Positions 5,106 through 26,479 of a stretch of DNA of 28,275 nt are shown here, one piece after another; position 1 is the first letter of the stretch; each line of letters opens with the position of its first letter. The notes beneath the pieces were generated by a model, which ran no database searches, was not told where the DNA came from, and was given only the letters and a program-made list of their open reading frames with translations. The DNA lies in IMG/VR virus record IMGVR_UViG_3300032173_000029, positions 1 through 28,275 of that record, one strand, 5' to 3'. The DNA is from a virus. A program made the translations under genes and the position numbers.

Positions 5106-5111
5106 CAGGAA

Positions 5112-5784: not shown

Positions 5785-5790
5785 TGGTTG

Positions 5791-5816: not shown

Positions 5817-5840
5817 GGTCAAGGCGGATGAAGCGTTACG

Positions 5841-6664: not shown

Positions 6665-6666
6665 GA

Positions 6667-7008: not shown

Positions 7009-7011
7009 GAT

Positions 7012-7098: not shown

Positions 7099-7505
7099 CC
7101 CGTACACCAATCCATTCCAGCTTGGTCGAAACCATAGCCGTTGGTGACAAACCAAATTCCATTGGCAGGGTTAACTATAGTATGAGTTACATCCGCACTG
7201 GTAACCGGAGAAGTTGGGGTGATCGCAGACATGCCATTAGAAGGAATGTATTTGCGCAACATACACACATGCTGCTTACCCCATAACACCGTTGGATAAA
7301 TAGTAGGAAATCCGCCACCGCAGGTAAATTGTCCCGGAACAGAGATAGCGCGCCCCCACCCATAAATCATGTTCTCCATTGGATTATAGGTGAGCTGCGA
7401 TTCTCCTTTTGCGATCACCTCTTGCATGGCACATAAGGATATTTCTTGTGATGCATACAATGAGGCAGAACAAAGAAGCGCAAGAATCAGTAAAAGATTT
7501 TTCAT
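7095..7505 (-). CDS. Secreted Cys-rich protein of unknown function
   Basis: The product has 136 residues from the ATG at 7505, which overlaps the upstream TGA (ATGA). Residues 1-18 form a classic signal peptide (Lys, then a Leu/Ile core, cleavage after SLYA). Four cysteines remain in the mature part (near C25, FTCGGG, HVCML and DWCTG), fitting two disulfides in the periplasm. There is no lipobox at C12. I do not recognise the family. A signal peptide is odd in a head-tail morphogenesis cluster: an exported protein should not be a standard virion part. It may modify the envelope of the infected cell or act in exclusion. Local composition is AT-richer than the flanking head genes. Confidence 0.75.
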   Translation of the reverse strand: MKNLLLILALLCSASLYASQEISLCAMQEVIAKGESQLTYNPMENMIYGWGRAISVPGQFTCGGGFPTIYPTVLWGKQHVCMLRKYIPSNGMSAITPTSPVTSADVTHTIVNPANGIWFVTNGYGFDQAGMDWCTG

Positions 7506-8020
7506 TTGTATCCCACGCACATCCTGCTGAACCGGCATATCGGAATGGTGATCCCATCTCCGCTGGCAAGCTGCATATCAAAGCAGATTCCGTAAACCGG
7601 ATTCTTAGGGTCTTGATTCCAGACGCTGAATTGATTGAGTAGCACCATCTCCGCCGCCGATAAATATTTTCTGTCGCGATGCACTCCATTGACCGGTGTC
7701 ACAATATCGCTTTCGTGAATCACCATAAAAGATTGCAATAAAGAAGGATCATCAGGTTTTGTTACCCAATCCTTACCGGCCCACGCTACCAGCCTTAATT
7801 TCACGCTCGCGGTGCCGGATGGATTCAAGCCTGTAATGCCTGAATCAATCCACATGATGTCCGGCAGGATTACTGAATCTAGCGTAGGCAGCCATTGCTC
7901 ACTGATTGGCCCTGAAAACGCATCTCCGATGCTGCGCCATCCTGGAAGCGGCAAGCCGCTGGCGTCAACATGTGCCGTCCATTTGTTGAAATTCCAGAAT
8001 GTCGCTGACTGAAGTTTCAT
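7502..8020 (-). CDS. Hypothetical protein in beta-helix cassette
   Basis: The product has 172 residues and I recognise no family. It looks beta-rich, with many Trp (WNFNKWTAHVDASGLPLPGWRSIGD) and turn motifs (LPDIMWIDSGITGL). No signal peptide, membrane helix or catalytic motif can be seen. The start overlaps the beta-helix stop (TAATG) and the end overlaps the next start (ATGA), so the three genes 9978-7095 form one coupled cassette. It may be a partner, chaperone or base-binding protein for the beta-helix protein. That is inference from position only. Confidence 0.7.
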   Translation of the reverse strand: MKLQSATFWNFNKWTAHVDASGLPLPGWRSIGDAFSGPISEQWLPTLDSVILPDIMWIDSGITGLNPSGTASVKLRLVAWAGKDWVTKPDDPSLLQSFMVIHESDIVTPVNGVHRDRKYLSAAEMVLLNQFSVWNQDPKNPVYGICFDMQLASGDGITIPICRFSRMCVGYK

Positions 8021-9978
8021 TATGTATCCGGCAAATCATAACAACCGGGTGTGGCATTTCCAGAAATGTTATTAGCCTGACCGTCGGCATAGGTGGTGTA
8101 AGTACCAGCCAACAGTTGAACCACTGAATGCACGCTGGTGTCGCCAGTCAGGGGATATCCATTGCCATCATAGGGCAACGAAGTTGGTAAGGCAGTTCCA
8201 TCTGGCTGCGTTGATCCAGCATCAAAGCCGGGTGCGACATATGCATTCTGCAAAACATCGACCGCCTGATAGGCGGCGATGCCAGTTGAGCGCGCAACCT
8301 GGTTCGGTGTACCTCCTACGATGTTCCACACCGTATTGTTGTTGCATGAGCGATAGCAGTTGCCACTGCCACCGGGAATGCCTTTGGTGGTGTTTATGCT
8401 GACGAAATAATATTGGGTGGCGGGGCTGCTTTGTAGCATATTTGCCACCAAGTTATTCGAGATATCCCATCCTAGCGGTGTCGGGGCAGTCAACGTCTGA
8501 CCAGATGCCAGTTGGAATGCCAAACTTTGACTGACACCGTAAGTGCGCTGAACGATGCTGTTGTGATGGCAAATTGAATTGCCAACGGTATTGGAGGCAA
8601 TCTGGCTGGCCAGATCCATCCCTTTGGAGGCACAGTCTTCGATGTAATTGAAACGAAGTGTGTTGCCGACGTTGATAAGGCGGGTGGCATCAGCACTTCC
8701 CGCGGCATTCAGATCGGTAGCCCAGATTCCGGAAGCGTGCCAGGTGTGCAAACGGGTCACGCCACCTGCCCGCTTGCCGATATTCTTTTCGACAAGGATG
8801 TTGGCGTTAGAGGTATACATTTCTATGACCGAATTACCACCAACGTCATGTCCATAGTTGTAGGCGACATGCAGACCATCGGTCATGGAAACTTCGAGCG
8901 CGTTATTCAGGCAATCGTACATTTCATTGCCCATGATCTCACCAGAGAGGCGGTGTGTGTCGTCCACTCCAGCGGCGTAGATACCATCGCCCACATAGTT
9001 GCCGCCAGCATCATCCGCCCCGGATTGCCCTACACGGCAACCATAAACATTAAACCCCGCGAGGGTAGGCGTGCCCGATGCAGTGCCATCGATAGCCAAT
9101 GTCGGCAGACGGGATTTTTTCAGATCGAGTCCGGCGATGGTTATGTACCCGGAATTAGTGACATTCTTCGCATAAGCGACATGCATAGCGTATAGGCCGA
9201 GCGTGATCTCGACCTGACCGAGGTTTGGATTCTCATTGCTATAGGGCCAGATGATGAGCGTCCCACCGGCACCTGCAGACCATTGCACTTGCCCGGCGGC
9301 AGCTGGAGCACCGCTGGTTTTCAATAAACGCACATCGCTCTGATAAACATCCGAGTTGTTGGTGATCCCGGTTAGTTGCCAGAGATTTCCTGATGTGTTT
9401 ACCCAATCGGTTCGTACCTGCCCGCCGGTTATAACAGGGAGCGCTAACGCATCGCCATAGGGCACCATGTAAAAGGGAGCGGCCGATGAACCATAGACCC
9501 CCAGACCAATCGCGCCTTGACCGATTCTCAGTCCATTGACGGAAGTACGCAGCGTTGTTCCGCGCTTGAATCCCAAGACCTGTCCCGCCATATTGCCAAT
9601 AATGGCGTTATATAACTGCGCCTCCGTGGCATAGGGATGAAGAAAAGTTCCTGTGGCCCCTGCGGAAGAAGCCGAGGGATCGAAGAATATGGTGGGGCGC
9701 GGGACAAATCCCTTGGCGTAAATATTGAATCGACTGATGCTGTCCGCAAGCCACGATAATCCACCCGGAATTCCGGATTTGATATGCGGATAATTATTTC
9801 CAAGAAATGATGCTAACAGATCATCGCTCGACTGATACTGTTGATATCCAAGATTTATTAATTCCAGAATGGTGTCTGGATCACTGATTGAGATACACCG
9901 ATTATTATCTGGTGTATAAGTAATATTTTTTTTGCTTTTGAAAAAAAGCATTCCTTGAGGTAACATGAATTGTTTCAT
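8020..9978 (-). CDS. Right-handed beta-helix protein (fibre/spike or depolymerase candidate)
   Basis: The product has 652 residues with AGGAG 7 bases before the ATG. The first 50 residues (LPQGMLFFKSKKNITYTPDNNRCISISDPDTILELINLGYQ) resemble short phage virion-anchor modules. FFDPSASSAGATGTFLHPYAT and LGFKRGTTLRT are typical of phage lyase-like beta-helix proteins. Residues about 280-520 hold repeated short strands and turns (AGLDLKKS, GNEMYDCLNNALEVS, VAYNYGHDVGG, ILVEKNIGKRAGG, LRFNYIEDCASKGMDL, NSICHHNSIVQR), as in parallel beta-helices. It could bind or cut a surface glycan. It lies among head-connector genes, so a head- or neck-attached fibre is possible. Confidence 0.8.
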   Translation of the reverse strand: MKQFMLPQGMLFFKSKKNITYTPDNNRCISISDPDTILELINLGYQQYQSSDDLLASFLGNNYPHIKSGIPGGLSWLADSISRFNIYAKGFVPRPTIFFDPSASSAGATGTFLHPYATEAQLYNAIIGNMAGQVLGFKRGTTLRTSVNGLRIGQGAIGLGVYGSSAAPFYMVPYGDALALPVITGGQVRTDWVNTSGNLWQLTGITNNSDVYQSDVRLLKTSGAPAAAGQVQWSAGAGGTLIIWPYSNENPNLGQVEITLGLYAMHVAYAKNVTNSGYITIAGLDLKKSRLPTLAIDGTASGTPTLAGFNVYGCRVGQSGADDAGGNYVGDGIYAAGVDDTHRLSGEIMGNEMYDCLNNALEVSMTDGLHVAYNYGHDVGGNSVIEMYTSNANILVEKNIGKRAGGVTRLHTWHASGIWATDLNAAGSADATRLINVGNTLRFNYIEDCASKGMDLASQIASNTVGNSICHHNSIVQRTYGVSQSLAFQLASGQTLTAPTPLGWDISNNLVANMLQSSPATQYYFVSINTTKGIPGGSGNCYRSCNNNTVWNIVGGTPNQVARSTGIAAYQAVDVLQNAYVAPGFDAGSTQPDGTALPTSLPYDGNGYPLTGDTSVHSVVQLLAGTYTTYADGQANNISGNATPGCYDLPDT

Positions 9979-9987
9979 TGATCACTC

Positions 9988-10848
9988 CTAAAATGTCACG
10001 ACCCGATAGGGATCGAGCAGGTTATCGATGTACGGCAATTCCGTGATCTGCCCGCGAATCGTGAGCATTTCCTCGCGGTTTTCATAAATCGAACTGAGGC
10101 GGATTTTTATCCAGCTTTTCAATCCCTCGAGATCCGCAGGGGACGTACCCAGATAATGCAGGCCGGTGCCAGCATCGGTCAGGTTAATCGCTGCGCCACC
10201 GGCGATCGCCGAGAGTTTATAAACCCCAGCGGAGAACGCGGCCTGAATAAAATAATCAGTGTTGATCACAAGCGGTGCAGGAAGTGCTCCACCACTATTG
10301 GCCAGGCGCACGACATCATTTACGATCATCGCTTTCCATCCGCTTACCATGATCGTATCGGCGGTAGCATCGGCAGTCAGCGGTGCGGCGAAGCCGGCAT
10401 CGAACGTAACCATGACTGCGCCGATCTGCGGCAGACTGATGGGCCAGATCTTGCCGAACACCGGCGTGATGCGCGCCGGTTGGCAGGCCAGATCGACCAC
10501 GTAATCCGTGGTGGGCATAGTCTGCAATGTCCCACTCATATCCAGGTACTGGATCGATACCACCTGAATCGCCGGCGATTTCGGTAACAGGATGGCATGC
10601 CCCGGCAGGCTGAAGGCCTGCCCCAGGGGAATACCCATCAGGCTCGGGCCGGGAAAAGCATCGAGCACCAGCTTCCAGCGCGCGGCGATGACCTGGCATT
10701 GCGTATTGGTCTCGGCAAACCGGCGCGCGGCGGCGATGAACGCGGTGATCTGCGCGTCGTCGGCAGTATCGGTGACGCGCAAATGGGCCTTCGCCTCATC
10801 GAGACTGATCGGTTCGGCGGTCGGCGGCGTAATGATCTGCAGCGGCAT
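9988..10848 (-). CDS. gp6-like head-tail connector with an internal beta-domain insertion
   Basis: The product has 286 residues. The N-terminus (PISLDEAKAHLRVTDTADDAQITAFIAAARRFAETNT) and the end (LKSWIKIRLSSIYENREEMLT) are the two halves of the gp6-like connector, which forms the adaptor ring under the portal. The family is usually near 170-210 residues. Residues 162-234 (ADTIMVSG ... NDVVRLANSGGALP ... NTDYFIQA ... GVYKLSAIAGGAAINLTDAG) are an inserted beta module of the type found in phage fibres, splitting the connector between VTFDAGF and the final helices. A terminator-like hairpin lies directly upstream of its start. Confidence 0.88.
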   Translation of the reverse strand: MPLQIITPPTAEPISLDEAKAHLRVTDTADDAQITAFIAAARRFAETNTQCQVIAARWKLVLDAFPGPSLMGIPLGQAFSLPGHAILLPKSPAIQVVSIQYLDMSGTLQTMPTTDYVVDLACQPARITPVFGKIWPISLPQIGAVMVTFDAGFAAPLTADATADTIMVSGWKAMIVNDVVRLANSGGALPAPLVINTDYFIQAAFSAGVYKLSAIAGGAAINLTDAGTGLHYLGTSPADLEGLKSWIKIRLSSIYENREEMLTIRGQITELPYIDNLLDPYRVVTF

Positions 10849-10857
10849 ACGATCCCC

Positions 10858-10886
10858 AAAAAACGAGGGCGGCCGAAACCGCCCTC
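10858..10886 (-). terminator. Terminator-like hairpin upstream of gp6-like gene
   Basis: On the minus strand: GAGGGCGG, loop of six, CCGCCCTC, then GTTTTTT. The hairpin ends about 10 bases before the gp6-like start and lies after the stop of the 148-residue gene. Confidence 0.72.
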
Positions 10887-10910
10887 AATCCACTACTAAA
10901 AGGAGACGGT

Positions 10911-11357
10911 TTAAACGATCTGTACCACACCAGCCTGGTTGAAGGCATCGGCGGGAGAGAAGCGCGGGAATGACCCAAGTAATGATGCGCCCACAAGGCT
11001 CGCCGCGGTGCCGACAGTGATCGACAATTGCACGAAAGCGAAGCCGCCTTCGGTATCGAGTTCGCCGCTACGGCAGTTGATGAGCGCCTGTTTGTTGTCG
11101 CCGGTGGCTTTGACGATCTGCGTGATGCCTTTGCCGGTGACGTCCTTGGCGCCGGTGCCGGCGCCATCGGTGGCCTGCTGCAGCTTGGCGTCAACGGTGG
11201 CATTGGCGCCGAGTACACCGGTCTGGATCAACGCCATCAGCGCCAAGTGGTTTTTGACTGCCACCCAGCCGGAGCTGACGGTACCGGCTCCCTGGCTCAT
11301 GGGATTGATCGTGGCGAGGACCGACAGGGTCTCGGAAGGTTTCTGGTTCGGGGTCAT
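10911..11357 (-). CDS. Head-associated protein of unknown function (decoration candidate)
   Basis: The product has 148 residues. NATVDAKLQQATDGAGTGAKDVTGKGITQIVKATGDNKQALINCRSGELDTEGGFAFVQLSITVGTAASLVGASLLGSFPRFSPA resembles a small protein found after the major capsid gene in several HK97-like phages, for which I know no proven function. A Shine-Dalgarno AAGGAG lies 8 bases before the ATG. Terminator-like hairpins lie on both sides, so it can be set apart in expression from the capsid and connector. It may be a capsid decoration or stabilising protein. That is inferred from position and not from a motif. Confidence 0.75.
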   Translation of the reverse strand: MTPNQKPSETLSVLATINPMSQGAGTVSSGWVAVKNHLALMALIQTGVLGANATVDAKLQQATDGAGTGAKDVTGKGITQIVKATGDNKQALINCRSGELDTEGGFAFVQLSITVGTAASLVGASLLGSFPRFSPADAFNQAGVVQIV

Positions 11358-11386
11358 GATGTAAGCTCCTTGAAAATCGATCGTTG

Positions 11387-11414
11387 AAAAAATCCGGGGC
11401 CTGTGCGGCCCCGG
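11387..11414 (-). terminator. Terminator-like hairpin downstream of major capsid gene
   Basis: On the minus strand: CCGGGGCC, five-base loop, GGCCCCGG, then ATTTTTTC. The stem of 8 GC pairs with a T-run lies 27 bases after the capsid stop, a good intrinsic terminator. Confidence 0.82.
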
Positions 11415-11441
11415 TCAGGTCATGGCGTTAACGCTTAACGC

Positions 11442-12773
11442 TTAACGCGCGGCGAGCTGGATGAATGGCGAGCGCGTTTTGGTGCTCTTGGGCGGCGTGA
11501 TAGGATTCGCAATCTTTGACTGCCCATCAACCCGGAAGGTGAAACGGAAGGCGGTCGCATCGGCATCGAAATAGAGATGCATCGAGGTCGCCATCTGGAT
11601 GCCACCGGCCTTGGTGATACTGCGATAATATTTGAAATCGAAGAGTGAGAGATCACCCAGACCGGAAAGTGCTGCCGCATGTTCCGTCAGGATCACCGGC
11701 CGTCCCATGAGCATGCCGAAAGTAGATCCGGCCTGTGCACCGGAATTCAATGGCAGGAACACCGGATAATTACCGATGGTCAGAGTCGGCAAAAGCGAAA
11801 CGAGATCCGGATTGGCGAACCACACGGCACGCGTAAGAGACCCCGCAGGCAGGCGGGAAATCATGTTAGTGATGTTGGTCATGCTCAGGGTGTTGGCTGC
11901 CTGACCTCCATCTTTCGCCACTGTAATCGTCGCGCCGCTATTCAACGCACCGACCGGCTGACCCGCGCCGGTGCCGTTCAGAAAGGCTTCATTGGTTTTC
12001 CAGCGAATCGAATCACCGGCCTTGCCGGGCAGATACCCGGCCAACGCGTTACTATCCGCCAATAGTTCGTCTGTGATCGGAACCAGTGCCATGAGCTTAT
12101 GCAACCGCAGCGTGGATGTGCCGAGCTTAGGCTTGCCCGCATTGGCGACCGAGGCCTCCGATTGCCAGTAGGCGCGCACACCATCCGTGCCCCAGGGCGT
12201 GGTCTCGTCCTTGGGATAGACCATGCTATTTCCGGTTAACTCATTGTTATCTGTCATCGGCAGCATGGAATCCTCTCCGAGTGAGAGCGTGAAGATTGTG
12301 CTGGAGAATTCGGGTGGCACCAAAAAGCCGCCATCTTGGCCGGCGCCTTCGCCGCCATAGCTCGTGGGTGCCGCGGCACCAATCAGCAGGCGCTCATCAG
12401 GACGTCCGCCAGACAGGGAGTCCTGATACACAGCACGGGCATATTCACCCAGGCTGCTAAAACCGTGTTTCGGATCATCCTCGCGGCGATCATGACCACC
12501 ACTGATGCGGCCGGGTTCGGGACTGCCGATCTGGGCTTCGGTGGCAATGCGGTCCTGCTCGAGATCGATCTGTGCCTGCACGTGGTCGATCTGCCCTTTG
12601 ATGGTTTTCACAGAGATCTGGTGCTTATCGAAAACAGTTTTTTCGTCATCGGTCAGATCGCGGTTCGCGGCGGCGGCGATATCGAGTACACCCTGCGCAT
12701 TGGCAATGGCTGTTGCCGCGGCCTTGAGGTGTTCGGATTTACGAGCCTGAAGCTCACGCAATTTCTTACTCAT
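11442..12773 (-). CDS. Major capsid protein, HK97 fold with N-terminal delta domain
   Basis: The product has 443 residues from the ATG at 12773, chosen for GGAG 6 bases upstream; a TTG at 12785 would lie in the Shine-Dalgarno region. Residues 1-80 form a charged coiled coil (the delta/scaffolding domain), normally removed by the prohead protease. Residues 147-155 (DGGFLVPPE) are the usual start of the HK97-fold body; later KLGTSTLRLHKLMALVPITDELLADSNA and MLMGRPVILTEHA are also typical. No separate scaffold gene is seen, as expected with a delta domain. It is flanked by terminator-like hairpins on both sides. Confidence 0.95.
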   Translation of the reverse strand: MSKKLRELQARKSEHLKAAATAIANAQGVLDIAAAANRDLTDDEKTVFDKHQISVKTIKGQIDHVQAQIDLEQDRIATEAQIGSPEPGRISGGHDRREDDPKHGFSSLGEYARAVYQDSLSGGRPDERLLIGAAAPTSYGGEGAGQDGGFLVPPEFSSTIFTLSLGEDSMLPMTDNNELTGNSMVYPKDETTPWGTDGVRAYWQSEASVANAGKPKLGTSTLRLHKLMALVPITDELLADSNALAGYLPGKAGDSIRWKTNEAFLNGTGAGQPVGALNSGATITVAKDGGQAANTLSMTNITNMISRLPAGSLTRAVWFANPDLVSLLPTLTIGNYPVFLPLNSGAQAGSTFGMLMGRPVILTEHAAALSGLGDLSLFDFKYYRSITKAGGIQMATSMHLYFDADATAFRFTFRVDGQSKIANPITPPKSTKTRSPFIQLAAR

Positions 12774-12783
12774 GTTTTTCTCC

Positions 12784-12808
12784 AATAAAAAACCCGCCAG
12801 AGGCGGGT
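12784..12808 (-). terminator. Intrinsic terminator upstream of major capsid gene
   Basis: On the minus strand: ACCCGCC, TCT loop, GGCGGGT, then a run of T that continues as TTTTTTATTGGAGA. The T-run merges with the capsid Shine-Dalgarno. It is near-identical in build to the hairpin ahead of the tail tube gene. Confidence 0.82.
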
Positions 12809-12890
12809 CGGGGTTGAACGGCTTGGTTGCACTGATCGCCGTCGGGTGATGGACCGCGGGCTCGATGGAGCCACGGCCGCGGGCTTGTAC
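12809..12890 (-). other. Intergenic leader between protease and capsid genes
   Basis: The gap holds no ORF of interest. It contains an imperfect nested inverted repeat (GGCTC...GAGCC within CCGCGG...CCGCGG, about 12857-12886), which may be part of an mRNA leader or processing site. No clear promoter is visible. Confidence 0.4.
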
Positions 12891-13811
12891 TTAGCCCAAA
12901 ATCTTCAATTCGTTTTGCGCTCGTGCCAGGCGTGAAGCAGCAGGCTTGGCCACCTGGCGCAGCTTGCGCTGCATGGATTTGATGACGCCGTCGAAAGTAT
13001 CGATGCCATCGACCATCTTCTCGCTCAGCGCCTGATCGGCGCCAAGCACACGGCCCTGACCCATACCGTCGCGCGCCTGCGCTACCGGCACGGCGCGGCC
13101 CTTGGCCACGGCGCGGGTAAAAGCGCCGTAGTAATCGTTTACGCGCGATTGCTGAAAGTCCCGCGCTTCCGGACTCAGCGATTCGTAGGGGTTGCCTTCA
13201 GTCTTGAACTTGCCGGCAGAGATGATCGTGGTGGTGACACCGGCCTCAGCCAGCGCGCGCGACCAATCTTCATGCGCGGACCAGACACCGATTGAACCGA
13301 CCTCGCCGCCGGGCGTGACATAGAATTCCGAGGCGTTGCTGCCAATCCAGTAGGCCGCCGAGGCAGCGAGGCTGTTGGCAATGGCCACGATCGGCTTTTG
13401 CGCCCGCGCGGCCAGGATCTCATCCGCCAGCTCCTGCACGCCGTACACCGAACCACCTGGGCTGTCGATATCGATCAGGATCGACCCGACGGTCTCGTCC
13501 GCCAGCGCGGCGCGCAAAGCCTGCGTGAACTGCTGGGTGCTGGCGCCGCCGGACCATTCCGTCATCATGCCGGCACGCTGGACGATGGTGCCGTAAAGTG
13601 GCAGCACGGCGATGCCGTTGCCACCGAGGCGCGCGGCCTGTTCGCGGCGGGCCTCCCAGGCAGATTTCTGCGGACCAAAGTCTTCATCCTCCATCGCGCG
13701 CGGCGTGCCGGCGGACCAGCGCGCGACCACGCCGGCATACAACGCCAGGCGTTCGCGCTTGACGGCCCATGGCGTGTCCAGGAATTCGGCGATCAGCAAG
13801 GCGTGTTTCAT
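12891..13811 (-). CDS. S49-family prohead protease (ClpP/SppA-like)
   Basis: The product has 306 residues from the ATG at 13811, which overlaps the portal stop (ATGA). The SppA-type motif IDIDSPGG (113-120) precedes the nucleophile Ser151 in NSLAASAAYW, and the general-base Lys lies in AGKFKTEGNPYE (K201 or K203). EVGSIGVWSAHEDW (170-183) is the conserved strand-loop. This is the lambda gpC-type protease that cuts the capsid delta domain and itself during prohead maturation. The C-terminal 50 residues are basic, perhaps the part that directs it into the prohead. Order portal-protease-capsid is standard. Confidence 0.93.
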   Translation of the reverse strand: MKHALLIAEFLDTPWAVKRERLALYAGVVARWSAGTPRAMEDEDFGPQKSAWEARREQAARLGGNGIAVLPLYGTIVQRAGMMTEWSGGASTQQFTQALRAALADETVGSILIDIDSPGGSVYGVQELADEILAARAQKPIVAIANSLAASAAYWIGSNASEFYVTPGGEVGSIGVWSAHEDWSRALAEAGVTTTIISAGKFKTEGNPYESLSPEARDFQQSRVNDYYGAFTRAVAKGRAVPVAQARDGMGQGRVLGADQALSEKMVDGIDTFDGVIKSMQRKLRQVAKPAASRLARAQNELKILG

Positions 13812-15364
13812 TTTTTGACCCCCAAAATCAGCAGGCGTTCGCGCGCGCGAACGCCGATGTCTTCGCAACCCACCACCGCCAGCGCCGCTTGGTGACCGCA
13901 ATACTCCAGTGCGGTTTCCCGGGAAACGGCCAGCACCTCGGCCACGTAATCCACATGCTTGTCGTAAAATTGTGTGATCGCGGTCACGGCATCCGGCCGT
14001 TCCCGCGCCTTTTTCACGGCATCTACTTCCTTGCGCACGACGCGATCGACGATGGCCGTCTCCAGGTGGCGCAACCGCGCCTGATCATTCGGTACGGGAG
14101 GTGTCTCGGCCGGGTCCGTTTCCCCATCACCCGGCTGGCCCCCGTTGGGATCGGCCGGTTCATCGACAGCATTGGGATCCGCGTTCGGATCCACCGTTAT
14201 CATGTTCAGCGGCTGCAGCGGGTCATCGAGCCCGTCCAGCGGGTCGAGGTTCTCCGCAATCCGTGCCTCGTTGCGCGTGAGCCAGCCGTCGATGATGCCG
14301 TTGTGGTAATAGCGCGAGCGCGCCTGCGAATCGCCACGCAGCAGGTTGGCGAAATCGAACTCCACCTCGAGGTCCGTGGCGTCCGGCAGCAGCTCGGCCT
14401 CGATCGAGGCCTCCCAGGCCTCGGCGCGGGGCGCGAGGCAATCCTGAATAAAATCCAGCGATTGTTGCTCAATGTTGCTGAAGGTCGCCTTCTCGAGGTC
14501 GCCGATTTTGTGCGGCGGCAGGTCGAACCAACGCGCGACCTCGGACACCTGAAATTTTCGGCTCTCAAGAAACTGCCCGTCCTCGTTGGTCATGCCGATC
14601 TCGTGATATTTCATTCCCATTTCGAGCACGGCTGTGTTTCCGCGATTGTTACCGGCCTGGGCCGCCTTCCAGGAGGCACGAAACATATCTTTGGCGGGCT
14701 GATCTTTGAACTGCCCGGGAAATTCGATCCAGCCACCCGTCGGGCGGGCATCGTTGGCAAAAAAACGCGATCCATACTCCTGTGCCGCGAGCGATAGGCC
14801 CAGGCTCTCGCGCGCGGCGGTAATCACACTCACACCGAGCAGCCCATCCCAGGAGAAGCCGCGGCGGTGCCAGATCTCGCCACGCGGGACAATCTCTTCG
14901 GTGCCGTCGGAACAGGTGATGCGATAACGGAAATCGCCATTGCCGCCGTCGAACGAATCCACGCGGATACGGTCCGGGTGGATCGGCACCAGATCGGTGA
15001 TCTCGCCGGTACGAAAATCCGTGATGATGCGGTTGTACGCATTGCCGCGCAGCTCGAGGTGGCCCTGCAGCATCTGGCGCCATTCAAAGGCGTTCTGCCA
15101 ACGGTTCGGCCGGCGCGCGAGCAACTGGTAAAGCCAGTGATCCGTAATCCGTTCCTTGCCGCCATTCAGCTTGTTGCGATAGAGCGTGAACGGCAATGAG
15201 GCCATCTGTCCGGCAATCAGTCGCACCGCGCGGAACACAGCGGCAATCTGCAGCGCCGTTTCCGAGGACACGCGGGCGCCGGCGAGCGTCCGCATGGTGA
15301 CCGGCTCGAACCAGAAATCGCCCCAGGGCGAACGGTCGTCGGCCGAGGCCTTGAATAAGAACAT
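13808..15364 (-). CDS. Portal protein, HK97 family
   Basis: The product has 518 residues. Typical features are VSSETALQIAAVFRAVRLIAGQMASLPFTLYR, then LYQLLARRPNRWQNAFEWRQMLQGHLELRGNAYNRI, and later SRKFQVSEVARWFDLPPHKIGDLEKATFSNIEQQSLDFI. The dodecameric portal is the DNA entry and exit channel and the docking site of the terminase. Compared with most relatives the C-terminus is extended: a Pro/Asp-rich linker (about 385-430) and a helical tail of about 90 residues. The start directly abuts the stop of the small membrane gene, and its end overlaps the protease start (ATGA). Confidence 0.95.
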   Translation of the reverse strand: MFLFKASADDRSPWGDFWFEPVTMRTLAGARVSSETALQIAAVFRAVRLIAGQMASLPFTLYRNKLNGGKERITDHWLYQLLARRPNRWQNAFEWRQMLQGHLELRGNAYNRIITDFRTGEITDLVPIHPDRIRVDSFDGGNGDFRYRITCSDGTEEIVPRGEIWHRRGFSWDGLLGVSVITAARESLGLSLAAQEYGSRFFANDARPTGGWIEFPGQFKDQPAKDMFRASWKAAQAGNNRGNTAVLEMGMKYHEIGMTNEDGQFLESRKFQVSEVARWFDLPPHKIGDLEKATFSNIEQQSLDFIQDCLAPRAEAWEASIEAELLPDATDLEVEFDFANLLRGDSQARSRYYHNGIIDGWLTRNEARIAENLDPLDGLDDPLQPLNMITVDPNADPNAVDEPADPNGGQPGDGETDPAETPPVPNDQARLRHLETAIVDRVVRKEVDAVKKARERPDAVTAITQFYDKHVDYVAEVLAVSRETALEYCGHQAALAVVGCEDIGVRARERLLILGVKK

Positions 15365-15520
15365 CTAGCCCTTGCCTATGATCTTCACGCCGACGAACGT
15401 GAGCATCAGCACCAGCACACCGACCGTCACCAACGCCAGGGGTACGCTCCACAGCGCCAGGCCGATACCAATGAGCCCCGTGCCGGCGCCGATCGAAAGG
15501 TTGTAGGTCAGTCGGTTCAT
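15365..15520 (-). CDS. Small two-helix membrane protein
   Basis: The product has 51 residues with two predicted membrane segments (LSIGAGTGLIGIGLALWSV and LALVTVGVLVLMLTFVGVKII) and a short basic end. The ATG overlaps the large terminase stop (ATGA) and its own stop abuts the portal ATG, so it is translated with both. I recognise no named family; small ORFs in this slot occur in other P27/HK97-like phages. It is not a typical holin by position, but an inner-membrane role during packaging or lysis is possible. Too small for confident assignment. Confidence 0.75.
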   Translation of the reverse strand: MNRLTYNLSIGAGTGLIGIGLALWSVPLALVTVGVLVLMLTFVGVKIIGKG

Positions 15521-17241
15521 ACCACCATAAGCCTGTAGTCGTTGCCGATAATGGCGTTGTGTTCTTGTTTCGCGATGACCATTCCCGCCGCCATGATCGC
15601 AGCGACGATGCCGTCCACCCGGCCGGTCGCCCGGTCTTTCGCGATCTTGCGATTCCCGGCAGGATCTGTGACCACCACCGCGTTCGCCGCGCACCAGGTC
15701 ATGATCGGATTGCCGTTGTGGCGCAAGGTGTCGGAGACCAGTAACCGTTCGAATTCGTCGACCGCAGGCGCCATATCCTTGAATCCTTGTCCGAATGGTT
15801 CGAGCGACAGAGAGATCCCCTCCCGGTCGAGGATCTGTTTCAAATCCTCGATACGCCACCGGTCATAACCCATCGCCTGCAGGTCATACAACGATACGAT
15901 TGCGGCCAGGCGTCTGGCGACCGCGAGCTTATTGATCGCGCGGCCCGGGAGCGCTTCGAGATAACCCGCATCTCGCCAGGCGATGTAGGGCACGCGATCC
16001 TTATCGGCCTTGTCATGCAGGCCATCACCGGGTAGCCAGAACCACGGCACCAGACGCCAAAAAGAATCGTCTGCCGAGGGCTCGAACAACAGCACGACGG
16101 CCGTGAGGTCCTGCGTGCTCGACAGATCCAGACCGCCCCAGCAGCGCCGGCCCACTAGACGATCCATCGCGAAATCCTTTTCCTCGCTCGCGAACCAGGC
16201 CTGCGAGGAAATCCACGGTGTTTCGGCCTCGACCCACTGGCAGAAGTTGAGCCGGCGCACGATCGATTCCTTCGCCGGCATCCCGCGTGCCTGGGTAACC
16301 TGTTCGCGGAGGTATTTCAGTCCCGGCAACCCGGCGGGAAGGCTTGGATTTACCTTTGGCCAGCAGCCTTCGTCCTTGAGCGGATCGTCCGCGTCGTCGA
16401 GCGCGCACACGTAGGCAAAGAAGCTATCGTCCGCGAGCTGGCCGGCGCCGACCTTCACGCTGTAATCGTGATAACTCCAGCACACGCTCTGTTTGTCGGT
16501 GCCGCTGTTCGTGATCATGAACAGCAGCGCCTGCCGCCGGCTCTTGGTGCCGGCGCGCATCATCTCCACCACATTCCCGGTCTTGTGCTCATGGATCTCA
16601 TCGAGCAGCGCGATGTGCGGACGCGGACCCGACTGTCCGTCATCGGCTGAGATCGGGCGGAAGAATCCGCCGGACGCCGGGTACGCGAGATTCCAGGCTT
16701 TCTCGCCAATGCCGCTCTTGGTCAACCGCGCCGAGAGACAGGGAGAGAGATCACACATCGCGATGGCGTCGCGAAACAGGATCATGGCCTGATCTTTTTT
16801 GGTAGCCGCCGCGTAAATTTCCGCGCGCGCTTCGCCGTCGGCCGTCAGTCCGTACATGCCGATGCCGGCGGCCAACGGACTCTTGCCGGAACCCTTGCCA
16901 GTCTCGACGTAGGCCACACGAAAACGCCGATACCCATCGGCACTGAGCCACCCAAACAGACTGCCGACAATAAATTGCTGCCAATCGAGCAGCTCGTAAG
17001 GGACGCCTTCGTATTCGCCGCCGTTGAGGCGCAGGATCTCAGAAAAATACGTGATCGCGCGATTAACTAATGCGACGTCGAATACCAATCCTCGGGCAGC
17101 ACCGTGTTCCATATCCGCCAGGTGCCGGCGACACGCGGCGCGCACATGCGGACCGGCGATGATTTTCCCGGCGAGGACCGCCTTGGCATAACGGGTAACG
17201 GGGTCACGAGAAGAACCGCGCCGTCGAGTCTTTGTCGCCAT
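15517..17241 (-). CDS. Large terminase subunit (Terminase_1 type)
   Basis: The product has 574 residues from the ATG at 17241; a longer reading inside the small subunit gene lacks support. Walker A is at 113-121 (ETGKGSGKS), Walker B at 208-215 (PHIALLDE, D214-E215), and the nuclease centre begins at D372 (WGGLDLSSTQDLT), with GRVDGIVAAIMA near the end supplying a late acidic residue. It is the ATPase and nuclease that packages DNA into the prohead. It overlaps the small subunit by 38 bases. With a P27-type small subunit and an adjacent HNH protein, cohesive-end packaging is likely. Confidence 0.96.
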   Translation of the reverse strand: MATKTRRRGSSRDPVTRYAKAVLAGKIIAGPHVRAACRRHLADMEHGAARGLVFDVALVNRAITYFSEILRLNGGEYEGVPYELLDWQQFIVGSLFGWLSADGYRRFRVAYVETGKGSGKSPLAAGIGMYGLTADGEARAEIYAAATKKDQAMILFRDAIAMCDLSPCLSARLTKSGIGEKAWNLAYPASGGFFRPISADDGQSGPRPHIALLDEIHEHKTGNVVEMMRAGTKSRRQALLFMITNSGTDKQSVCWSYHDYSVKVGAGQLADDSFFAYVCALDDADDPLKDEGCWPKVNPSLPAGLPGLKYLREQVTQARGMPAKESIVRRLNFCQWVEAETPWISSQAWFASEEKDFAMDRLVGRRCWGGLDLSSTQDLTAVVLLFEPSADDSFWRLVPWFWLPGDGLHDKADKDRVPYIAWRDAGYLEALPGRAINKLAVARRLAAIVSLYDLQAMGYDRWRIEDLKQILDREGISLSLEPFGQGFKDMAPAVDEFERLLVSDTLRHNGNPIMTWCAANAVVVTDPAGNRKIAKDRATGRVDGIVAAIMAAGMVIAKQEHNAIIGNDYRLMVV

Positions 17242-17683
17242 CGGGAAATAGATTGCCTTGCGGCTGGATGGCAATGCGGGTACGCGCCGCCGGCGACATG
17301 CCGAATTCACGCAACACCGTCATCGCCTGCTTGAAGCTCATGGATTGCACGACGAGCCAGGGATTGATGCTATCGCCCTTGCTCTCCGCGGCCACTGGCG
17401 AATGGCACACCAGGTTGCCCACCACCTCGGTGGCCGCCTGCCGGTATTGCGCGATCGCCACACAGCCCATGGAGAGCGCGTGCACGTCGATCTTCGTCAG
17501 CAACCGGCAATGCCGCAGGGCCGGCGCGAGTTCATCCCACACGATCGCGGCGGTCGCATCGAGCCACGCCGGCGGCGCGAGATCGTTCAGGTATTCGGGG
17601 TCCGGCTCCTGCCGGTTCAGAGCGCGCTTCCCGCGATTGCCCTCGATGACTTTCAGCGCCGTTGGTTTTATGGGTCTCCCCAT
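17204..17683 (-). CDS. Small terminase subunit, P27 family
   Basis: The product has 159 residues. The N-terminus MGRPIKPTALKVIEGNRGKRALNRQEPDP and PAWLDATAAIVWDELAPALRHCRLLTKIDVHALSMGCVAIAQYRQA are the P27-type signature. The end, MTVLREFGMSPAARTRIAI, is also typical (L-x-x-FGMSP-x-x-R). It recognises the packaging site and hands DNA to the large subunit. An unusual G-rich tract surrounds the start codon. The gene follows the HNH gene after a 100-base gap that may hold the cos site. Confidence 0.94.
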   Translation of the reverse strand: MGRPIKPTALKVIEGNRGKRALNRQEPDPEYLNDLAPPAWLDATAAIVWDELAPALRHCRLLTKIDVHALSMGCVAIAQYRQAATEVVGNLVCHSPVAAESKGDSINPWLVVQSMSFKQAMTVLREFGMSPAARTRIAIQPQGNLFPDGDKDSTARFFS

Positions 17684-17784
17684 GTCCCTTACCCCCCACC
17701 CATATCCATTACGCGGTGATGCAAAGAAAGAAGGCCAAGCGGTCGCCGGGCCACCGGGTATAGAGAGTTACCCTCCCTACCCCC
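17678..17784 (-). other. G-rich gap between HNH and small terminase genes, cos candidate
   Basis: On the minus strand, runs of 3, 6, 3 and 4 G lie at 17701-17678 with loops of 1, 3 and 4, fitting a G-quadruplex that spans the start codon of the small terminase gene. A second G-rich cluster (5, 3, 3) lies at 17784-17771. No other gene lies in the gap. In HNH/P27 phages the cos site is often near here. No cut site can be named from sequence alone. Confidence 0.4.
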
Positions 17785-18107
17785 TAGCGCCAGTGATGCC
17801 GGGCATCCAGCGGCAGGCCATTGAGGTCACAACCCAGCTGCGCCCCGCTCTTCTCGGCGCGCTGCTTGTGGCTGTCGTGGCAGTGCTTGCATAACGCCTG
17901 CCAGTTGCAGCTATCCCAGAACAGCACGCGGTTGCCCTGGTGCGGAACCCGGTGATCGACCACCGCCGCCGCCGTGGTGCGGCCGAAACGATGGCACTCG
18001 ACACACAGCGGGTGAGCCCGCAAGTAGGCGGCGCGGGCTTTGCGCCACGCATGACCATACCCGCGCTGCGTGGCCGAATCCCGCAACGGTGATGTCTTGC
18101 GCGCCAT
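17784..18107 (-). CDS. HNH endonuclease, packaging-associated
   Basis: The product has 107 residues. Two CXXC pairs (C35/C38 in LCVECH and C73/C76 in LCKHCH) bind zinc. D51-H52 in VVDHRVPH, N68 in WDSCNWQ and H77 or H80 form the HNH centre. The N-terminal RDSATQRGYGHAWRKARAAYLRAHPLC is the standard opening of phage HNH proteins lying next to P27 small terminase genes. In HK97-like phages this protein works with the terminase to cut cos. It is the first gene of the late operon, after the promoter and leader terminator. Confidence 0.93.
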   Translation of the reverse strand: MARKTSPLRDSATQRGYGHAWRKARAAYLRAHPLCVECHRFGRTTAAAVVDHRVPHQGNRVLFWDSCNWQALCKHCHDSHKQRAEKSGAQLGCDLNGLPLDARHHWR

Positions 18108-18140
18108 GAGAGCGTAAGTGCGTTGGTTTCTTCGGAAACG

Positions 18141-18172
18141 AAAAAGCCCGCCAGATCGGATCTGTGCGGGCT
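18141..18172 (-). terminator. Late leader terminator (tR'-like) before HNH gene
   Basis: On the minus strand AGCCCGC pairs with GCGGGCT, with an inner CAGATC/GATCTG pair extending the stem, followed by TTTTT. It lies about 50-75 bases after the predicted late start point and before the first late gene, so late genes need read-through. Confidence 0.88.
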
Positions 18173-18224
18173 TGAGAGGCTGTTACCGGTGCCTTGCATC
18201 GACACCTATACCAGCATGGGAAAA

Positions 18225-18253
18225 AATATACACATTTAGGAACCTCCAGTCAA
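18225..18253 (-). promoter_or_regulatory. Predicted late promoter (pR'-like)
   Basis: On the minus strand TTGACT (18253-18248) and TATATT (18230-18225) are separated by exactly 17 bases; each hexamer is one base from consensus. The -35 overlaps the stop codon of the Q-like gene. The expected start is near 18218. Directly after it, TGGTATAGG (18213-18205) resembles an extended -10, as in sigma-dependent pause sites of lambdoid late promoters. The promoter reading rests on consensus match and place; the pause is inference. Confidence 0.75.
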
Positions 18254-18966
18254 ATCCTTTCTAAAATTTTGATGATTTCAGCCATGCGCCGATGTGCGTC
18301 GGCAAGCTTCTTGCGGTACCAGCGTTCCGACACATGAAACCGCTGTGCCTTCATCTCCTGCGTCCCATTGCGCGTATATTCCTCAATCACTACCCGCGCC
18401 AGCCAATAGGTAGCATCGTAATGGCTCCAACCCTCCACCGTGCGCTCGATCAGCGCTGACACCGGATCGGGCTCATAGTCCTGCCCGAGGTAGCATGTGC
18501 CCTTGATCGTCGCCGGGTGCACCTGCAGCTCCATGATCACGCGTTTGCCCGCGCCCCGGCATACGTGGCAGGTGCGGCCGTCCGGCATGGTGCCGGTAGA
18601 GCGGCGCACCATGGGATCGGCATCGAAACAAAACACGCAACCGACCGTCCGTACATGCGTGCTGACACCGAGATTGCCATCGACCTTGCCCTCGCCGCCG
18701 CAGGTAGGACAGGGCTGGTTGATGAAGGCCTGCGCCGATCCGATCAGATGCCCCGGCATGCGCTTTGCGCCCTTGCAGGTGGAGCAAACCGACGAACCAC
18801 GGCTATCGCGCAGCTCACCCAAGACGCCAGTGCTCTTGCCTGATTCATCGCCGTAATACCGCGCTCCGCTGCGCCAACGTGCCCAGCGTTCAAAGGCCTC
18901 GCGTATCTTGGCTTTCGTATCGCTGGTGCTGAGCTGCAGAGGTTCGGCGATAGCCGCTGTGATCAT
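18250..18966 (-). CDS. Q-like late antiterminator / late gene regulator with DnaJ-type zinc fingers
   Basis: The product has 238 residues. Four CXXC pairs lie at 61/64, 86/89, 110/113 and 133/136, three with the DnaJ-like CXXCXGX(G/K) form. The C-terminal part (VIEEYTRNGTQEMKAQRFHVSERWYRKKLADAHRRMAEIIKILE) looks like a helix-turn-helix of the sigma region 4/Q-protein type. The position, as last early gene next to a strong promoter and terminator that precede the late genes, is that of lambda-family Q. By analogy it would load on RNA polymerase at the late promoter and permit read-through. It is coupled to the upstream gene by ATGA. DNA binding is inferred. Confidence 0.75.
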   Translation of the reverse strand: MITAAIAEPLQLSTSDTKAKIREAFERWARWRSGARYYGDESGKSTGVLGELRDSRGSSVCSTCKGAKRMPGHLIGSAQAFINQPCPTCGGEGKVDGNLGVSTHVRTVGCVFCFDADPMVRRSTGTMPDGRTCHVCRGAGKRVIMELQVHPATIKGTCYLGQDYEPDPVSALIERTVEGWSHYDATYWLARVVIEEYTRNGTQEMKAQRFHVSERWYRKKLADAHRRMAEIIKILERI

Positions 18967-19420: not shown

Positions 19421-19629
19421 GGTTCTGCCTTACCTCTCAGCAGTTCATTCATTCCTTCCCGTAAGGCTTGCATGTCCTGCAACAACTCGATCAGCACATC
19501 GTGTATTACCTGGGATTGTTCCATGGCAATGCGGGTGCGTTCTTTCGCGCTGGCATCGGCATAGCGTTTCCGATAGTGCTCCAGCCGCTCTATTTTTCCG
19601 CTCCTGTAGACCTGCGGACTTTCAGCCAT
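19417..19629 (-). CDS. Hypothetical helical protein
   Basis: The product has 70 residues, almost wholly charged and helical, with an apparent coiled coil from RLEHYRKRYADAS through VIHDVLIELLQDMQALREGMNELLRG. No family is recognised. It overlaps the winged-helix gene upstream by 8 bases and the zinc-ribbon gene downstream by 4 bases. It could be an oligomerising accessory factor of either neighbour; nothing more can be said. Confidence 0.65.
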   Translation of the reverse strand: MAESPQVYRSGKIERLEHYRKRYADASAKERTRIAMEQSQVIHDVLIELLQDMQALREGMNELLRGKAEP

Positions 19630-20215
19630 GTAAGAGCTTTCTCAGTTGAGAAAGGTGAGCGGCGGCTGTTGCAGGATCGCTGTGTCCGATTAAACGGTCG
19701 TCTTTTTTATTATTTTTCATCCCGCCGGGTTCACCGGCGGAACATTCTGAAAGAGAACCGGGTGGCGCACACCCGCTTTTGGGGTGCGTCTCCGGTATAA
19801 TTCTCTTATGTAGATAATATTGTGCCGAATTCGGCACACGGCTCGGATAAAGAAAAGAGGCCGCCCGATTTACGGCTCCCGCCATCCCGGCCAGCCATTT
19901 CAGCGCGCGGCCCTTGAGCTTGTAGATCGTGGAGCGGAACACCCAGCCGCGTTCGCCGTCCTTCTGGTGCCGGCGCTTACGTTCGATCCATCCGAGGCGC
20001 ACCAGTTGATTCAGATGGCGATTGAGCGATCGCAGGCTCATGCGCCGCCCGTAGCGGGCCAGCAGCGCCAGGATCTTATCCTGCGAGGGGAAACAGTAGC
20101 CCTTGTCGTATTTGTTCGCCGTGCCGGCGAGCACGGTGAGGATCAGCATCTCCGGATTGTGGACGAAGGTCTGGTATTCGTAATCCTGTTCCAGCAGGGC
20201 GTGCAAAATTAACAT
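19622..20215 (-). CDS. Winged-helix (HTH_36-like) protein, candidate replication initiator or regulator
   Basis: The product has 197 residues with GAGG upstream of the ATG. Residues 38-100 (KGYCFPSQDKILALLARYGRRMSLRSLNRHLNQLVRLGWIERKRRHQ...GWVFRSTIYKL) match the HTH_36 pattern: a CFPSQ opening, a helix-turn-helix and a wing. The C-terminus is low in motifs. Phage replication initiators and some transcription factors share this fold. It occupies the lambda O slot in the early operon, but no helicase or loader gene follows. A perfect 18-bp palindrome lies inside the gene and related inverted repeats lie just upstream, fitting a self-binding or origin role. Confidence 0.7.
   Translation of the reverse strand: MLILHALLEQDYEYQTFVHNPEMLILTVLAGTANKYDKGYCFPSQDKILALLARYGRRMSLRSLNRHLNQLVRLGWIERKRRHQKDGERGWVFRSTIYKLKGRALKWLAGMAGAVNRAASFLYPSRVPNSAQYYLHKRIIPETHPKSGCAPPGSLSECSAGEPGGMKNNKKDDRLIGHSDPATAAAHLSQLRKLLHG
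19821..19838. repeat. Perfect 18-bp palindrome inside the winged-helix gene
   Basis: TGTGCCGAATTCGGCACA reads the same on both strands. It falls in codons near residues 126-131 of the winged-helix protein. Its half-site GTGCCGA recurs in an inverted repeat upstream of that gene. Confidence 0.65.
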
Positions 20216-21653: not shown

Positions 21654-21847
21654 GGCGCCAGCTCCGCCATGATTTCGAGCAACGGGTAGCTGGGCTCGAT
21701 GAAAAGTTTCGTGCCATCCGCGAGCAGGTCATGAAATTCGCGCAGGAAATAAGCCGGATCAATGACAGCTTCAAGACGTGAAATAATCTCGTCCATAACC
21801 TGAGTCAGGGCTTCGGATTCGGCGCTGAGCGTAATGATGGCGGTCAT
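21650..21847 (-). CDS. Small hypothetical protein
   Basis: The product has 65 residues from the ATG at 21847, which overlaps the TGA of the CII-like gene. A longer frame upstream exists but lies inside that gene. The text ESEALTQVMDEIISRLEAVIDPAYFLREFHDLLADGTKLFIEPSYPLLEIMAEL is helical and acidic, with no recognised motif. The tight coupling to a regulator upstream could mean a modulatory role; this is conjecture. Confidence 0.6.
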   Translation of the reverse strand: MTAIITLSAESEALTQVMDEIISRLEAVIDPAYFLREFHDLLADGTKLFIEPSYPLLEIMAELAP

Positions 21848-22275
21848 TTCGCGCCTCGCGTGAGCACGCCGTATTTCACTAGTGTCTCGATCTCTTTCCG
21901 CTGGTCCTCGTTGGCCTTTTCTAGATCGCGGATGCGTTTGTCTTTGGCATCTTCGCACGGCAAGAGCCGATAACCGCGCTTGCTGGCGAGCCACTGCAGG
22001 GGAATTTCATTGCCGCACAATTCCATCAATCGCAATAGTTTGTTTTCCGGGAAAGAGGCATCGCCGTTCATGATGCGCGTCCAGTTGCCGGCGTCGATGC
22101 CGAGCGGCTTGTAGATTTCCTTGTCGTAACCGAACCCGGCGTACTGGATGCAAAGCTTGATCGCCGCGTGCAACGTCTGCTGCTTCTCGATGATGGAAAC
22201 ATCGGGCGCATCCTGGGCGGTGCCGGGCTGGCCGAAAAGCGGGATCTGGCCGGCCAACAAATTATTTGTTGTCAT
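21844..22275 (-). CDS. CII-like / phage HTH regulator
   Basis: The product has 143 residues. The central part (HAAIKLCIQYAGFGYDKEIYKPLGIDAGNWTRIMNGDASFPENKLLRLMELCGNEIPLQWLASKRGYRLLP) reads as a helix-turn-helix domain of the kind found in phage regulators of beta- and gammaproteobacteria. A C-terminal coiled coil (DKRIRDLEKANEDQRKEIETLV) suggests an oligomer. It is the second gene of the PR operon, after the Cro-like gene and a terminator, as CII is in lambda. A GGGG-containing Shine-Dalgarno precedes the ATG. The DNA-binding call is good; CII function is inferred from position. Confidence 0.7.
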   Translation of the reverse strand: MTTNNLLAGQIPLFGQPGTAQDAPDVSIIEKQQTLHAAIKLCIQYAGFGYDKEIYKPLGIDAGNWTRIMNGDASFPENKLLRLMELCGNEIPLQWLASKRGYRLLPCEDAKDKRIRDLEKANEDQRKEIETLVKYGVLTRGAK

Positions 22276-22601: not shown

Positions 22602-22631
22602 ATGGTAAGCATGCTTACTGTTTGTTGTCAA
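22602..22631 (-). promoter_or_regulatory. Early right promoter (PR-like)
   Basis: On the minus strand, a perfect TTGACA (22631-22626) is followed after 18 bases by TACCAT (22607-22602, 4 of 6). The operator GTAAGCATGCTTAC lies between and over the -10. The same TTGACAACAAA leader is found at the PL-like promoter near 24585. Confidence 0.72.
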
Positions 22632-22666
22632 GCATGCTTCCCTGCGTTGAGTGTAAGTTTGCTTAC
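22605..22666. promoter_or_regulatory. Three repressor operators (OR-like)
   Basis: Three related 14-bp sites lie at 22605-22618 (GTAAGCATGCTTAC, perfect palindrome), 22628-22641 (core AAGCATGCTT) and 22653-22666 (GTAAGTTTGCTTAC). Centres are 23 and 25 bp apart, like lambda OR1-3. The first covers the PR -10, the second its -35, and the third ends at the base before the first in-frame ATG of the repressor. Confidence 0.82.
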
Positions 22667-22681
22667 ATGGAGAACGAGAAA

Positions 22682-23044
22682 ATGCTTGGGGATCGGATCA
22701 AAAAGGCGCGCGGAAAACTAAGCCAGGAATTAGTCGCCAAGGCCGTGGGCGTTACCCGTGAGTCGGTAAGTCAATGGGAAAACGGCACCACAAAAGACTT
22801 GAAGATACAAAATCTTTTTAAGCTGGCTAAATTTTTAAAAAAAAATGCTGAATGGCTCGGCACTGGCGATGGGCTTGAAGAACCGGAAGCAATTGGTTTT
22901 CATGCCGCCGAAACGGCGGGAGAATATCAAAACCTGAAAGACTTGACCGATGATGCCATTAAGGCAGCACGCGAATGGATGAAACTGCCGGCAGCATTGC
23001 AAAAACACATTTTCGATATGATGGCGATTTTAAATAAAAAATAA
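22682..23044 (+). CDS. CI-like repressor, short form without autoprotease domain
   Basis: The product has 120 residues from the ATG at 22682, chosen for GGAG nine bases upstream; ATG 22667 (five residues longer) directly abuts the third operator and would be leaderless. Residues 3-55 (DRIKKARGKLSQELVAKAVGVTRESVSQWENGTTKDLKIQNLFKLAKFL) are an XRE helix-turn-helix. The C-terminal half is helical (DLTDDAIKAAREWMKLPAALQKHIFDMMAIL). There is no S24/LexA-type peptidase, so RecA-driven self-cleavage is not expected. It is the only plus-strand gene in the immunity region and lies next to the operators. Confidence 0.85.
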   Translation: MLGDRIKKARGKLSQELVAKAVGVTRESVSQWENGTTKDLKIQNLFKLAKFLKKNAEWLGTGDGLEEPEAIGFHAAETAGEYQNLKDLTDDAIKAAREWMKLPAALQKHIFDMMAILNKK

Positions 23045-25132: not shown

Positions 25133-26479
25133 ATGAAGGCATCCGCCGCCATCCTCGCCGTTGACCTCATTCCCGATCACGTCGCTTATCTGCCGATCGC
25201 GGCGATCTGCCCCGACCCGAACCAGCCGCGCACCGAATTCAACGAGACCGAGCTGCAGGGCTTGGCCACTGACATTGCCGCGCGCGGCATCGAACACGCA
25301 CTGCTGGTGCAAGCCAACGGTTACATCAAAGACGGTGAACGCCGCTGGCGCGCGGCACAGATCGCCAAGCTGGCCACGGTGCCCTGCCTGCTCGCGATCG
25401 ATGGCGTCGAGGTGGCCGGCCACGACCCGGTGGCGTACCTGCTCGATCAGGCCGCCGACAACGACCACGCTGCCAAACTCACACCACTTGATTGGGCGCG
25501 GTTTCTCAAGAAACTCGTTGAGACCCACGGCGTCGCCGTGAAAGACATCCCCGCCCTGCTCGCCGCACGCGGCATCACCATGAGCCGCCCCTATGCCTCG
25601 AACCTGATGCGGCTCACCGAGCTGCCCGACTGGGCCCAGGACAAGATTAAGACCGGCGCGCTTACGCCGGCCCACGGCAAGCACCTGCTCATCGCCAAGG
25701 ACTCACCGAAGGCGCTGGCAGAAGTGAAAAGCACCCTCGAGAACTGGGACACCGAATACGACCCGCTCACGATCGAGGCCCTGCGCTACGCCGTGCTCAA
25801 TGCCCTCGACGACGTGCATCTCGACCTCGAGTGCCGTCACGGAGACAAGGCCCCGCAGTTCGATACCAAGACTTGCGAGGGCTGTCCCAACCGCAAGGTG
25901 ATCAGCGAGAAAGGATGCCGCGATCGCATCTTTTGCTTCGATGAAACCTGCTTCAATAAAAAACAAACCGAGGCCGTGAATAAAGCCGCCGCCAAGAAAA
26001 AACAGGACCCCACGGCCAAGCCGACTCGCCCCATTGACCCCAAGACCCGCGAACGGCAACTACGCCAGAAAGCGGAGACTATTGCTCGCCGGCATGCAGT
26101 ATTGGCCATCGTTGGCAAGGCCAATGGTCACCCAGATACAGCAGATATGCACCTGCTCCTGAATAGGATTGCCGGCTACAGCGAAACCAAACAAATCTGC
26201 GAACGCCGCGGCTGGCAATCCAAGAATGGCCATTTCTTCGCTACCTTCGCGACGCGCACGAAAGGCCTGGGCGCCAGCGAGCTGCACGGCCTGCTGCTCG
26301 AGGCCGCCCTGGCGAACGGCAACGACGAACGCTTCATTGAGACCGCCAAACGCTACCACGTGAACCTCAAAGCGTTGGAGAAAACCGCGCTCGCAGAGCT
26401 CATGCCAAAGGCGGTTGCTAAGAAACCCAAGGTAAAGAAATCCTCCGCTGCCGCTAAACCCAAAGGCAAGAAAAAATGA
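25133..26479 (+). CDS. ParB-like protein with Cys-rich insert and Lys-rich tail
   Basis: The product has 448 residues; GGAG precedes the ATG. The ParB N-terminal domain is clear (PDPNQPRTEFNETELQGLATDIAARG, then DGERRWRAA at 67-75, the CTP-binding motif). A helix-turn-helix region spans about 115-190. Then a six-Cys insert (C234, C248, C251, C262, C268, C273), probably zinc-binding, and a Lys/Ala-rich tail from about 415. No ParA gene is in view, so simple partition is unlikely unless it lies beyond the edge. Phage ParB-like proteins can regulate transcription or act as nucleases. Its stop overlaps the next ATG. Confidence 0.88.
   Translation: MKASAAILAVDLIPDHVAYLPIAAICPDPNQPRTEFNETELQGLATDIAARGIEHALLVQANGYIKDGERRWRAAQIAKLATVPCLLAIDGVEVAGHDPVAYLLDQAADNDHAAKLTPLDWARFLKKLVETHGVAVKDIPALLAARGITMSRPYASNLMRLTELPDWAQDKIKTGALTPAHGKHLLIAKDSPKALAEVKSTLENWDTEYDPLTIEALRYAVLNALDDVHLDLECRHGDKAPQFDTKTCEGCPNRKVISEKGCRDRIFCFDETCFNKKQTEAVNKAAAKKKQDPTAKPTRPIDPKTRERQLRQKAETIARRHAVLAIVGKANGHPDTADMHLLLNRIAGYSETKQICERRGWQSKNGHFFATFATRTKGLGASELHGLLLEAALANGNDERFIETAKRYHVNLKALEKTALAELMPKAVAKKPKVKKSSAAAKPKGKKK

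Follow-up and report, generated by a model that had tools for sequence, protein, structure and literature searches.

A probable Q-type antitermination switch for the late genes of a phage with a DnaJ-finger regulator

Known Q-like antiterminators act by a common mechanism without sharing sequence similarity. Three Pfam families of Q proteins have been named (PMC7171158), and published models of lambda Q contain an inserted zinc finger (PMC9371919). The binding elements of Q, AlpA, and GafZ lie between the -35 and -10 elements (PMC6606751, PMC7969949, PMC11150451). In the AlpA system, a -10-like sequence, CACGAT, occupies positions -1 to +5, and antitermination is impaired when its A or its T is replaced (PMC9371919). 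Further Q-like antiterminators were anticipated by those who described the AlpA structure. PA0613, from the pyocin regulatory region of Pseudomonas aeruginosa, is described in one paper only as a regulatory gene, and its function is not established in the papers found.

We analyzed a window of 28,275 nt, i.e., positions 1 to 28,275 of the IMG/VR record IMGVR_UViG_3300032173_000029. Its gene order is similar to that of lambda, comprising a repressor-like gene (22622-23044, plus strand) and, on the minus strand, a CII-like gene (21844-22275), an O-like replication gene (19622-20215), small ORFs, a regulator gene, and the late genes. Past the promoter-leader element, the minus strand encodes HNH, TerS, TerL, portal, protease, major head, connector, major tail, tape measure, and minor tail proteins, in that order. 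A ParB-like protein is encoded at 25133-26479 on the plus strand, and the phage is probably temperate. The features of the switch are as follows, with the corresponding sequences of a second phage, IMG/VR contig L001:

18250-18966, minus strand: Q-like regulator of 238 aa, with an N-terminal ERWARW helix, a CXXC block, and a C-terminal helix-turn-helix
18248-18253, minus strand: -35 element TTGACT, overlapping the regulator stop codon; identical in L001
18241-18247, minus strand: candidate regulator-binding element GGAGGTT, between -35 and -10; GGACGTT in L001
18225-18230, minus strand: -10 element TATATT, 17-nt spacer from the -35; CATAAT in L001
18213-18218, minus strand: putative -10-like sigma-pause element CATGCT, -1 to +5; TATGCT in L001
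18179-18215, minus strand: leader hairpin, z = -3.0
18141-18172, minus strand: intrinsic terminator (tR'-like), +46 to +77
17784-18107, minus strand: HNH endonuclease, first gene past the terminator (phrog_2323, E = 3.5e-40)
17204-17683, minus strand: TerS, at the start of the packaging and head genes
15517-17310, minus strand: TerL, at the start of the packaging and head genes

Regulator gene, promoter, -10-like element, promoter-proximal terminator, and then late genes make up the Q-type layout, and we consider it very probable that the locus is a Q-type processive antitermination switch for the late genes. The initial annotation had proposed a late switch of the Q - pR' - tR' type, and several observations now support that proposal well: the element is conserved next to the regulator in two phages, its geometry resembles that of lambda, it lies between a replication gene and the late genes, and the late operon contains strong internal terminators. 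Under the proposed mechanism, RNA polymerase would start constitutively at the promoter overlapping the regulator stop, sigma R2 would catch xATGCT at -1 to +5, and the complex would pause; if the regulator were absent, transcription would end at the terminator (+77). The regulator would bind DNA between -35 and -10 through its C-terminal helix-turn-helix, the candidate site being GGASGTT, load at the RNA exit channel of the paused polymerase, and block hairpin formation. So modified, the polymerase would run through the leader terminator and, among the head and tail genes, through at least five strong terminators.

The near-consensus promoter overlapping the regulator stop (TTGACT-17-TATATT), already recognized in the initial annotation, proved to be unique: TTGACT-N16-18-TATATT occurs once in the window and in none of 100 shuffles. 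A generic promoter scan found no excess of promoter-like sites (2 vs. 1.6 in shuffles) and is not significant alone; the proof of the promoter is its conservation in L001.

This conservation is the best evidence for the switch. Protein scans of viral contigs, genome contigs, phages, and plasmids returned L001 as the sole relative, with a regulator 61% identical to that of the window. L001 carries the same 71-nt promoter-leader element, 77% identical over 71 columns, compared to 65% overall and 49% at third codon positions for the regulator coding DNA; the element alignment score of 53 compares with a mean of about 15-16 and a maximum of 31 in 2000 dinucleotide shuffles. The conserved blocks are the -35 with GGA(G/C)GTT, the -10, ATGCTGGT, and GGTGTCG-TGCAAG-CACCG, and conservation extends to about +31, within the transcribed leader. 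The L001 terminator (+48 to +72) cannot be aligned with that of the window; the two are alike in position and not in sequence, the pattern expected from selection on function rather than sequence. A chance grouping of sequences resembling a promoter and a terminator near a zinc-finger gene unconnected with them would agree with the lack of general enrichment of promoter-like sites in the region, but the element is far better conserved than shuffles allow and better than the coding gene next to it, and the exact promoter match is absent from shuffles; we regard such coincidence as scarcely credible. Beyond L001, element pattern scans of viral contigs gave only chance matches lacking the hairpin or regulator, and DNA similarity searches of phage records gave terminator-like stretches only; the data searched contain just two examples of the switch.

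The surroundings of the element differ between the two phages. In L001, ~215 nt separate it from the regulator upstream, and the genes that come next are not those of the window; the first gene past the terminator (4970-5182), in place of HNH, encodes an apparent cold-shock (CspA-like) protein. Genes of the csp type also neighbor Q in the Qin prophage of E. coli. Unlike the window, L001 has an apparent large terminase gene (1468-3444) upstream of its regulator, where it is not part of the switch.

In both phages, xATGCT starts exactly 6 bp past the -10, and we infer that transcription starts at A18217. The conserved start region ATGCTGGT follows the -10 and precedes the hairpin and terminator. 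The expectation of a pause element just past the start was right insofar as a -10-like element is present, and wrong as to its identity: the conserved one is CATGCT, not TGGTATAGG. The latter is present at 18213-18205 (+5 to +13 if +1 is A18217), where L001 has TGGTCGTGG, and was rejected as a pause element for its lack of conservation. Comparison of the two phages suggests xATGCT, at -1 to +5, as the likelier pause element.

The strong terminator predicted about 80 bases downstream and before the first late gene was confirmed in both respects, since its T-run ends at +77 and HNH (18107-17784) comes next. It reads AGCCCGC-A-CAGAT-CCG-ATCTG-GCGGGCT followed by TTTTT, and a single bulged base kept a consensus terminator scan from detecting it. 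Together, leader and terminator fold at -36.8 kcal/mol (z = -5.1), a stability reached by none of 200 shuffles. The leader hairpin (18215-18179), which does not appear in the initial annotation, has an inner stem GGTGTC / GGCACC and loop GATGCAA at 18206-18188 that are kept in L001; an Rfam search gave no match. The hairpin may belong to the 5' leader, as its counterparts in P22 and lambda do, or it may serve as an additional signal for loading.

Such a hairpin also raises the question of whether antitermination depends on leader RNA, with the hairpin as main recruiter (boxB/N-like) or sole actor (put-like) and the fingers binding RNA. The near invariance of the GGTGTC-GNTGCAA-GRCACC stem and loop between the phages agrees with such a scheme, as does the finding that the leaders fold better than shuffles. 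However, the block upstream of the start site is conserved equally, the regulator has a Q-like C-terminal domain, Rfam gave no match, and P22 and lambda also form a 5' leader hairpin, yet their Q is DNA-loaded. RNA-based recruitment is therefore very unlikely. Somewhat less doubtful, though still unlikely, is a separate class in which the four-CXXC block would read the leader hairpin RNA and the helix-turn-helix the promoter, with loading requiring both.

The late operon itself contains further terminators. A strict scan of positions 1-18240 identified five on the late strand, lying between genes, and 0 on the other strand, compared to a mean of 0.4 (range 0-2) in shuffles:

12792-12808, minus strand: internal terminator immediately before the major head gene
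11395-11413, minus strand: internal terminator after the major head gene
10867-10884, minus strand: internal terminator ahead of the head-tail adaptor gene
5768-5816, minus strand: tandem terminators immediately before the major tail gene

The major tail gene was taken to start at the ATG at 5750, not at the longer ORF start. No comparable second promoter was found on the minus strand, where the only other promoter-like site is weak. Five strong late-strand terminators combined with the absence of a comparable second promoter call for processive antitermination. The internal terminators could also tune expression; the polymerase must pass them either way.

These terminators bear on whether the regulator instead acts as PrtN, ArpU, or RinA do, as a conventional late-promoter activator that binds near the -35 and recruits polymerase, with the leader terminator just ending an early transcript. 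Such a role would suit the helix-turn-helix, the location of the -35 region within the conserved stretch, and a weak match to phrog_248, annotated 'transcriptional activator' (E = 0.2). Against this, a promoter so near consensus should make an activator unnecessary, conservation reaches about +31 in the transcribed leader, the terminator is held at the same distance in both phages, and the five strong terminators of the late operon would still halt transcription. We thus judge simple activation to be highly improbable and favor processive antitermination.

Sequence analysis of the regulator bears out the four CXXC pairs (residues 61/64, 86/89, 110/113, and 133/136) and C-terminal helix-turn-helix (residues ~188-230) first annotated, and all eight finger cysteines are invariant in the L001 protein. 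The DnaJ finger profile PF00684 matches the regulator at 1.9e-5, below the Pfam curated cut-off. These fingers had been held to be unlike lambda Q, which was wrong: the contrast fails because lambda Q (8.9e-5, also under the curated cut-off) and QuuQ (1.3e-8) match the same profile. The regulator has no match at E<=1 to the Pfam Q families PF03589, PF06530, and PF06323 and is not a member of phrog_127; the L001 protein likewise has no match at E<=1 to PF03589, which detects lambda Q itself at 6e-58.

The best-scoring relative of the C-terminal domain is the PA0613 family. PA0613_fam (NF051483) matches this domain with E = 8.8e-4 for the regulator and 7e-5 for the L001 protein, scores of 19.5 and 23 bits that fall below the NCBI equivalog cut-off of 100 bits. 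We read the regulator as a distant homologue of the PA0613 family over part of the protein. Its best phage-family match at the C-terminus is the unnamed phrog_5285 (2.4e-4 to 4e-3), which is also matched by Pseudomonas Q-like phrog_79 proteins. The HMM comparison of the C-terminus with Q82, Q21, and lambda Q suggested by the initial annotation gave no Pfam match, but a custom QuuD/Q21-like profile gave weak, collinear matches at both ends (residues 20-32 and 189-228) on either side of an insertion of ~110 residues; this link is weak, as about 3-17 of 3000 shuffles reach an equal score. Profile-profile comparison with the Q families, built on the only two regulator sequences, found no significant match, and the QuuD relatives listed from viral contigs added nothing, as they did not differ from one another. 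AlphaFold models had a pLDDT of 33 for the whole regulator and 58 for the C-terminal domain, and fold searches from these low-confidence models returned nothing significant; the PDB matches of the C-terminal model, which included sigma factors and AlpA (7xya), had E>=1.7 and were set aside. In Pseudomonas phage LESphi3 (L110:403-1075), a 98-aa DnaJ-finger gene annotated 'antitermination protein Q' lies directly upstream of a 124-aa QuuD-like gene, a pair that looks like the two regulator halves as separate genes, although this resemblance is suggestive only.

Among known systems, the lambda Q family (PF03589; lambda, P22 gp23, phi80 gp17, and QuuQ) resembles the window in its DnaJ-type zinc finger and in having its gene just upstream of pR', a TTGACT -35, and a leader hairpin followed by a terminator. 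The -10 and the -10-like element are 6 nt apart in the window and L001, as they are in lambda and P22 (7 nt in phi80), and the window terminator (+46 to +77) is placed much as in phi80 (+46 to +74) and P22 (+31 to +59). The annotated Q site of phi80 has nearly the same placement as GGAGGTT, and the leaders of P22 and lambda form a 5' hairpin as in the window. In contrast to this family, the window regulator carries its finger block nearer the N-terminus, ahead of a different C-terminal domain, and the binding element differs.

The Q21/QuuD family (PF06530, phrog_79/943; DLP12, Sf6, and Pseudomonas phages) has a short N-terminal [E]RWxxW motif and a C-terminal helix-turn-helix that align collinearly, with weak statistics, with both ends of the regulator, which differs from Q21 by an insertion of ~110 residues with four CXXC pairs, roughly at the ring-forming segment of Q21. 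In Sf6, the promoter overlaps the end of the Q gene, as in the window. The PA0613 profile is 119 positions long, too short to accommodate the finger block. AlpA at P(alpB) of P. aeruginosa and GafZ of Caulobacter have a binding element placed like the window candidate, and the AlpA terminator tB begins at +54; these two proteins control lysis or gene-transfer-agent genes, unlike the window regulator, and no sequence match between them and the regulator was found.

The suggestion that the regulator forms a distinct antiterminator class thus holds for its sequence, in that no Pfam Q family matches, but not for its mechanism, which looks like a known one. From these comparisons, the locus appears to be a sequence-divergent variant of a known switch type, and a conserved promoter-pause-hairpin-terminator layout can reveal a late-gene antiterminator that protein profiles miss. 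The regulator joins a DnaJ-type finger block to a PA0613-like, perhaps Q21-like, end, and the profile similarities hint at a Q-like nature for the PA0613 family of the pyocin region as well.
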